A stretch of DNA of 64,000 nucleotides from Magnolia sinica (taxonomy: Eukaryota > Streptophyta > Magnoliopsida > Magnoliales > Magnoliaceae), in assembly GCF_029962835.1 (NCBI RefSeq), contig NC_080582.1, forward strand, positions 23,010,032 to 23,074,031, read 5' to 3'. A program made the position numbers and the translations under genes. The notes under the pieces are model-generated. The model was given only the letters and a program-made list of their open reading frames with translations. It did no database searches and had not been told where the DNA came from. This document shows, piece by piece, positions 3,891 through 50,545 of the stretch. The first letter of the stretch is position 1; each line of letters starts with the position of its first letter.

Positions 3891-4070
3891 CTAGGCTGAT
3901 TGCAAGATCTTTCTCTCTTCCAGTGTGAGTCTTTTGTGGAGGCCCTGTAGATGCTGACAGAACTCCATGAACAATTCACTTACCTGCTTCCCCTTCTCAT
4001 ACTCAATAGTTCCCTTATGCACAACCTTTATTTTGTCAACATGGTCTTCGTTTTTGTTCTGTGGTTTCTT
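3891..4070 (-). CDS. Exon 5 (last) of the SAWADEE-like gene
   Basis: The exon begins after the acceptor 'acatgcag' and encodes residues 357-415 and the TAG stop. The peptide holds '[18 protein letters not shown]' followed by an amphipathic, probably helical tail '[16 protein letters not shown]' and a basic-acidic end. It enters in phase 0, matching the AAG end of exon 4. A donor-like 'CAGgtaagt' lies inside the exon (around 3978-3987), but the sequence after it still reads as convincing protein, so I keep it as coding. Confidence 0.85.
   Translation of the reverse strand, partial: KKPQNKNEDHVDKIKVVHKGTIEYEKGKQVSELFMEFCQHLQGLHKRLTLEERKILQSA

Positions 4071-50545: not shown

Follow-up and report, generated by a model that had tools for sequence, protein, structure and literature searches.

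The stretch of DNA analysed here, a 64-kb window of the Magnolia sinica genome, carries on its minus strand a gene that extends over 46.7 kb, from position 50545 to position 3891, in six exons that all stand in order. This gene is very probably one copy of a tandem array, with a first intron enlarged by a gypsy retrotransposon and then by a CACTA transposon, and its predicted product is a 429-aa SAWADEE protein. A genome search placed the window at C10:23010032-23074031 of the 1.84-Gb assembly; the M. sinica genome paper likewise reports 1.84 Gb, with 57% repeats, as well as transcriptome subreads (PMC10999834). In the scenario that we propose, an ancestral intron 1 of about 8.5-9.6 kb would have received a Ty3/gypsy element in the common ancestor of the window gene (copy III of the array) and of copy II. 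The gypsy-bearing stretch would then have been duplicated, giving copy II, and a CACTA would have entered the gypsy 5' long terminal repeat (LTR) of copy III, which would have produced the present 35-kb intron.

Exon 1 (50207-50545, 339 nt) starts with ATG, encodes the N-terminal part of the SAWADEE domain and ends at a GC donor. Exon 2 (14713-15051, 339 nt) encodes the remaining part of this domain, exon 3 (14180-14225) is only 46 nt long and has AG/GT borders, exon 4 (13745-14063, 319 nt) encodes an RRM-like alpha-beta domain, and exon 5 (4926-4992, 67 nt) is followed by exon 6 (3891-4070, 180 nt including the stop), which matches a long helix predicted in a relative from Persea. The six exons add up to 1,290 nt, which encode 429 aa and a stop without interruption; between them lie introns of 35,155 (GC-AG), 487, 116, 8,752 and 855 nt, of which the first occupies 15052-50206 and the fourth, a GT-AG intron, 4993-13744. 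A first-pass annotation, made from the letters of the window, had placed all of these exons except exon 3 at exactly these positions, had given the lengths of both long introns correctly, and had joined its five exons in compatible phases into one frame of 415 codons. The single frame holds; the number of exons, the phase at the second junction and the length do not. The five-exon model was rejected, as its pieces sum to 1,244 nt and the frame stays unclosed, because exon 2 ends in phase 0 and the exon at 13.9 kb needs one preceding base. The overlooked exon 3 recurs with the same 46 nt and identical borders in all eight genomic copies that reach that far (the window counted), and its sequence is contained in the RefSeq proteins P0001 (copy V) and P0002 (copy IV). 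Consequently, the 8.75-kb intron, formerly numbered 3, counts as intron 4. A tblastn search with the Persea relative matched the five previously annotated pieces (exons 1, 2, 4, 5 and 6) in order, four of them at E values from 5e-34 to 2e-14 and the 67-nt exon 5 at 5e-4. The donor of intron 1 reads GC (GCGAGT) in six of six copies with exon 1, and the acceptor CAG in each of the five copies that have the whole of exon 2. By this GC donor and AG acceptor, intron 1 is assigned to the GC-AG introns, a recognised minor class that is reported to account for less than 1% in model organisms (PMC7072748).

Searching the genome with the window protein gave 31 matches among the candidates scored, and revealed seven full or partial copies on C10, every one on the minus strand. 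Copy I (22,904-22,929 kb) and copy IV (23,376-23,400 kb) have all six exons, with first introns of 8.4 and 12.6 kb, respectively; copy II (22,968-22,979 kb) has exons 2-6, its exon 1 not being found; copy III is the window gene, with six exons and an intron 1 of 35.2 kb; copy V (23,612-23,645 kb) has an intron 1 of 12.8 kb and gave no match to exon 5; and copies VI and VII (23,802 and 23,818 kb) are represented by exon 1 alone. Both copy I and copy IV are open over 429 aa, and their exon lengths, order and splice borders are the same as those of the window gene. That the scattered pieces form a single gene, as the first-pass annotation had deduced, agrees with this and with the RefSeq model, in which exons 1 and 2 are joined; the splicing of the whole is what we infer from these comparisons. 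The possibility that the pieces were unlinked pseudogene fragments with a complete homologue elsewhere was discarded, given that homologues I and IV share the chromosome, strand, order and borders.

Most of intron 1 is made up of a block of 25,540 bp (22295-47834, 73% of the intron) that is missing from copies I, IV, V, VI and VII. The alignment with copy I covers window positions 13222-22294 and picks up again at 47835, with the five target bases present once, and the same empty site with a single target copy was found in all five of the other copies that have exon 1. In the window, the target bases read ACGAC on the left and ACAAC on the right, four of five being alike and one differing by a G-to-A change. 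The block contains a gypsy element on the plus strand: a 5' LTR in two parts (22295-23064 and 39279-40313, 95.4% and 96.8% identical to the 3' LTR over 761 and 1,035 sites), a coding region (41206-45903) and the 3' LTR (45950-47834). The coding region is interrupted; its several open frames match gag and protease, reverse transcriptase (RT) and RNase H, the zinc-binding domain of integrase, an SH3 domain of the Tf2 type and, below the cut-off, a chromodomain; no match to the integrase core was found in these frames. RT and RNase H precede the integrase zinc-binding domain, and by this order, the two LTRs and the nearly intact target duplication the element is classified as Ty3/gypsy. It is probably a chromovirus because of its domain set, including the Tf2-type SH3 and the chromodomain match below cut-off. 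The first-pass annotation had called the element complete, which is true in outline, as both LTRs are present, and not of its coding region.

The CACTA transposon of about 16 kb that had been described as nested in the gypsy element is indeed there, and lies in the 5' LTR (23065-39278, 16,214 bp). Its ends carry CACTACG in inverted orientation, it is flanked by a 3-bp target duplication (TAT on each side), and it encloses a degenerate, telomere-like array of TTTAGG-type hexamers, 6 kb long (23919-29961, plus strand). No transposase was matched in 12 tested frames of 76-174 aa, out of 33 frames of at least 60 aa in 29962-39278. Its first 100 bases (23065-23164) have 39 other genomic matches of 93-99% identity among 40 scored of 1,470 candidates; the CACTA family is therefore abundant and probably recent. 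For the junction between the LTR and the CACTA, 40 matches were scored from 1,470 candidates, and one of them was full-length. In copy II, the intron sequence passes into the LTR of the gypsy element and then into its internal part (up to window position 41803), with the CACTA absent and TAT present once. As copy II thus has the gypsy element and not the CACTA, the sequences compared establish the order of events: separation of the array copies, insertion of the gypsy element in the ancestor of II and III, the duplication that gave II and III, and insertion of the CACTA in III. A further stretch of 1.1 kb (48061-49152), consisting of two 530-bp copies that are 85.5% alike, is also missing from the five other exon-1 copies. 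Without these two blocks intron 1 would measure about 8.5 kb, compared with 8.4 kb in copy I, and it is mainly the transposon block that distinguishes it from the introns of copies I and IV. A separate insert of approximately 4.1 kb (C10:23394092-23398156) is found in copy IV, at a point equivalent to window position 22034. As for the many miniature inverted-repeat transposable elements noted earlier in intron 1, repeats are indeed abundant there, and their terminal inverted repeats are putative.

Such close likeness between copy II and the window gene might indicate an assembly artefact, the two being haplotypes of one locus or misassembled repeats. They show zero differences in exons 2-5, and over 15052-22034 of intron 1, compared in 700-column steps, stretches with 0-0.3% difference alternate with stretches of 2-10.5%. 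However, exon 6 differs at 6 of 180 positions, the CACTA and exon 1 are each present in the window gene and not found in copy II, and the two copies lie 46 kb apart on one contig. The empty sites in copies I, IV, V, VI and VII are, moreover, independent of copy II. We consider an artefact of this kind highly improbable.

Exons 1 and 2 together encode a full SAWADEE domain (PF16719, E 4.5e-34, 117.7 bits against a cut-off of 28), the match covering profile positions 5-125 of 125 and protein residues 17-154; this bears out the resemblance that had been proposed from knowledge of the family. PF16719 is the sole family above its cut-off in the window protein. Exon 1 provides C84 and the aromatic residues F43, F46 and Y107, and exon 2 provides H119, C128 and C130; we take the cysteines and the histidine to be the zinc ligands and the aromatic residues to be candidates for the aromatic cage. 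In an alignment of 22 rows, comprising 19 chosen non-Magnolia relatives from 43 retrieved proteins and three Magnolia rows, H119, C128 and C130 are kept in all 22 rows and C84 in all 21 that reach this site. The domain would form only when the 35-kb intron is removed, because C84 lies in exon 1 and the other three residues in exon 2. The fold was tested on the Persea relative (P0004), for whose model the SAWADEE chains of SHH2 and SHH1, tandem-tudor-like in fold, rank first at 19-25% identity. A phmmer search of the PDB with the window protein gave no match at E up to 1; a profile search reached the SAWADEE chains of maize (E 4e-4) and, at no better than E 7.8, Arabidopsis SHH1.

The predicted protein has the SAWADEE domain in its N-terminal part, an RRM-like domain in the middle and a helix at the C terminus. 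It resembles SHH1 of Arabidopsis and SHH2 of maize in the full-length profile match, the Cys/His set, the aromatic residues and, as judged from the Persea model, the fold. Unlike them, it shows no homeodomain match, and the RRM-like domain and the helix come after the SAWADEE domain, which begins at residue 17, with 16 residues ahead of it, whereas the crystal structure of Arabidopsis SHH1 spans residues 124-257. Homeodomains were absent among the eight families matched by any of the 22 aligned members at E up to 1, although a very divergent one could escape a profile search, because the homeodomain of SHH1 has been called cryptic (PMC3141008). Uncharacterised SAWADEE proteins of other angiosperms (Persea, Liquidambar, Macadamia, Vitis and others) are 38-52% identical to the window protein over the aligned length and match it mostly end to end, some database models being shorter. 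The Magnolia genes differ from these relatives in forming a recent tandem array, and the window copy in having changed at two residues invariant in the 19 aligned. For SHH2, in vitro binding to H3K9me2 is reported, as is its presence in a SWI/SNF complex (PMC9170682). By analogy of family and fold, the most probable role of the window protein is that of SHH1 and SHH2, the recognition of histone H3 tails with a methylated K9.

In RefSeq the window locus is LOC131217435, whose protein P0003 contains the products of exons 1 and 2 letter for letter, joined at the predicted junction. For the other copies, P0045 corresponds to exon 1 of copy I extended into the intron, P0002 is copy IV starting six codons before exon 2, and P0001 comprises exons 1-4 of copy V. 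An early stop codon as the cause of the short P0001 was considered and dropped, since in copy V the genomic match is confined to the flank beyond exon 5 and leaves out exon 5 itself. In searches restricted to shared words and a length range, no returned RefSeq protein contained the full product of copy I, III or IV, and a separate protein for window exons 4-6 was not returned (42 candidates, two matches). Automatic annotation does split the gene, as had been expected: there are RefSeq loci for copies I, III, IV and V, and the proteins returned for them include no six-exon product. The truncated models could also be taken at face value, exon 1 and exons 2-6 being separate transcription units, with a start just before exon 2 that would yield an N-terminally short protein. 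P0002 and P0045 have the form expected of such units, and copy II has exons 2-6 with no exon 1 found. Nevertheless, the RefSeq models of the window locus and of copy V themselves have exons 1 and 2 joined, other angiosperm relatives hold both halves in one protein, and each exon alone encodes an incomplete SAWADEE domain, which makes separate units very unlikely.

For the window gene as one six-exon unit, it matters whether the copy is still constrained. No stop, frameshift or lost splice border was found across its six exons, and since every exon and border is intact after the insertions, the copy could in principle still be spliced to encode the ancestral protein. Divergence in the exons is lower by a factor of 2.2 to 2.8 than in the part of intron 1 that was compared, on the side of exon 2. 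For the window, the figures are 22/1290 vs 320/6809 against copy I (p 9e-8) and 23/1290 vs 274/6934 against copy IV (p 4e-5); copies I and IV give 9/1290 vs 114/6886 (p 0.008).

Several observations weigh against this picture. The RefSeq model of the window locus adds a non-homologous upstream exon (54455-54763, minus strand, 3.9 kb upstream of exon 1, with no Pfam match) and ends in intron 2, leaving exons 3-6 unsupported; the additional exon, which presumably resembles retroelement coding sequence, is probably an annotation artefact. The synonymous divergence (dS) of the window copy is lower than its intron divergence (0.030 vs 0.047 with copy I, 0.026 vs 0.040 with copy IV), and part of the lower exon divergence is therefore not due to selection on the protein. 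Two replacements, D24N and P349A, affect sites that hold D and P, respectively, in 19 of 19 of the chosen non-Magnolia relatives, A349 being present in copy II as well. At sites where the window departs from a state common to copies I and IV, we counted 13 replacement and 5 silent changes, as under neutrality (p 0.56; 0.77 with 4 silent), compared with 4 to 5 between I and IV (p 0.02). Gene conversion between copy II and the window is likely, because stretches of near-identity alternate with more diverged ones between the two, and it would cloud the divergence tests. Finally, the binding of methylated H3K9 is something that we only infer.

The two replacements, the 13 to 5 count and the truncated RefSeq model, together with the two sister copies that are open over their full length, may point to a decaying copy that has given no full-length mRNA or protein since the gypsy insertion and drifts, while the intact copies I and IV carry the function. 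Such decay is compatible with the gene structure described above, and we regard it as a serious possibility, if somewhat short of an even chance. The ratios of replacement to silent divergence (dN/dS) are 0.46 for the window with copy I and 0.61 with copy IV, vs 0.21 for I with IV, which is the direction expected of decay. However, the counts are small and the replacement ratios do not differ significantly (Fisher p = 0.22). The dN/dS signal is not strong enough to discriminate between constraint and decay. Bases peculiar to the window copy occur at codons 24 and 62 in exon 1 and at codon 400 in exon 6. Some of the window differences are also shared with other copies, namely one replacement and one silent change with copy V, and V12 and D102 with copies VI and VII; the intact exons and borders and the lower exon divergence likewise speak against decay.

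Intron 4 contains copia-type pieces on the plus strand (6306-9484): gag_2 (6306-6698), an SH3 match below the cut-off (7998-8384) and RVT_2 (8633-9142 and 9146-9484). They share one orientation and stand in the usual order of copia domains. The first-pass annotation had recognised them as copia and counted three remnants; their number is unproved, and one decayed element fits the arrangement at least as well as three. A self-comparison of intron 4 gave two short direct repeats and no copia LTR pair. Outside C10, truncated copies of the gene (part of exon 2 through exon 4) are carried by C8, C9 and C17, and the one on C8 (C8:5930048-5934214) appears fused in RefSeq with a UDP-glycosyltransferase-like protein (P0005). 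A UDP-glycosyltransferase fragment in intron 4, suspected from this protein, was rejected: the window matches P0005 over 33 residues at the fusion point (84.8%), with nothing more at E <0.2 among the matches listed, and the match is therefore attributed to shared intron sequence turned into an exon in the P0005 model. The fusion itself is probably one of annotation. Ten more SAWADEE matches lie off C10, including C3:4269431, C17:49315196 and C17:49312390, with others at C1:127.9 Mb, C6:0.59 Mb, C18:0.46 Mb and C4:106 Mb, and they are probably other family members, among them SHH types.

In Chloranthales and magnoliids, long genes and introns have been reported to be widespread, and in Chloranthus LTR elements were named as a major cause (PMC8626473); for Magnolia biondii, the average intron length is given as about 2.8 kb, with some introns of exceptional length (PMC7917104). 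The window gene resembles these cases in that LTR retrotransposons have lengthened an intron and left the exons unchanged. Transposon-filled long introns of magnoliids have thus been described already; new are this array and its history. The window gene also differs from those cases in that its sister copies within one genome reveal individual events and their order, and in the GC donor of its intron. With its transposon in the intron of a coding gene, the window copy is also like the genes with heterochromatic intronic transposons described in Arabidopsis that involve IBM2 and EDM2, and by analogy a dependence on IBM2/EDM2-like factors may be predicted. In a more speculative reading, which we consider doubtful, the protein would be a two-handed chromatin factor, arrayed in Magnolia, that combines a SAWADEE reader of H3K9 methylation with an RRM-like domain binding RNA or protein, and the window transcript could depend on the state of its own intronic 25.5-kb block. 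This combination of domains is not described in the titles and abstract openings of the papers listed among the literature matches. If the reading were true, intron 1 of the window gene would carry the kind of sequence that such readers mark. The array constitutes a natural series, in which one gene has first introns of about 8.4, 12.6, 12.8 and 35.2 kb within one genome, and empty sites date two large insertions relative to duplications. As the sister copies share exons and splice borders with the window gene, they offer a reference for testing how a 25-kb intronic transposon block affects transcription and splicing.
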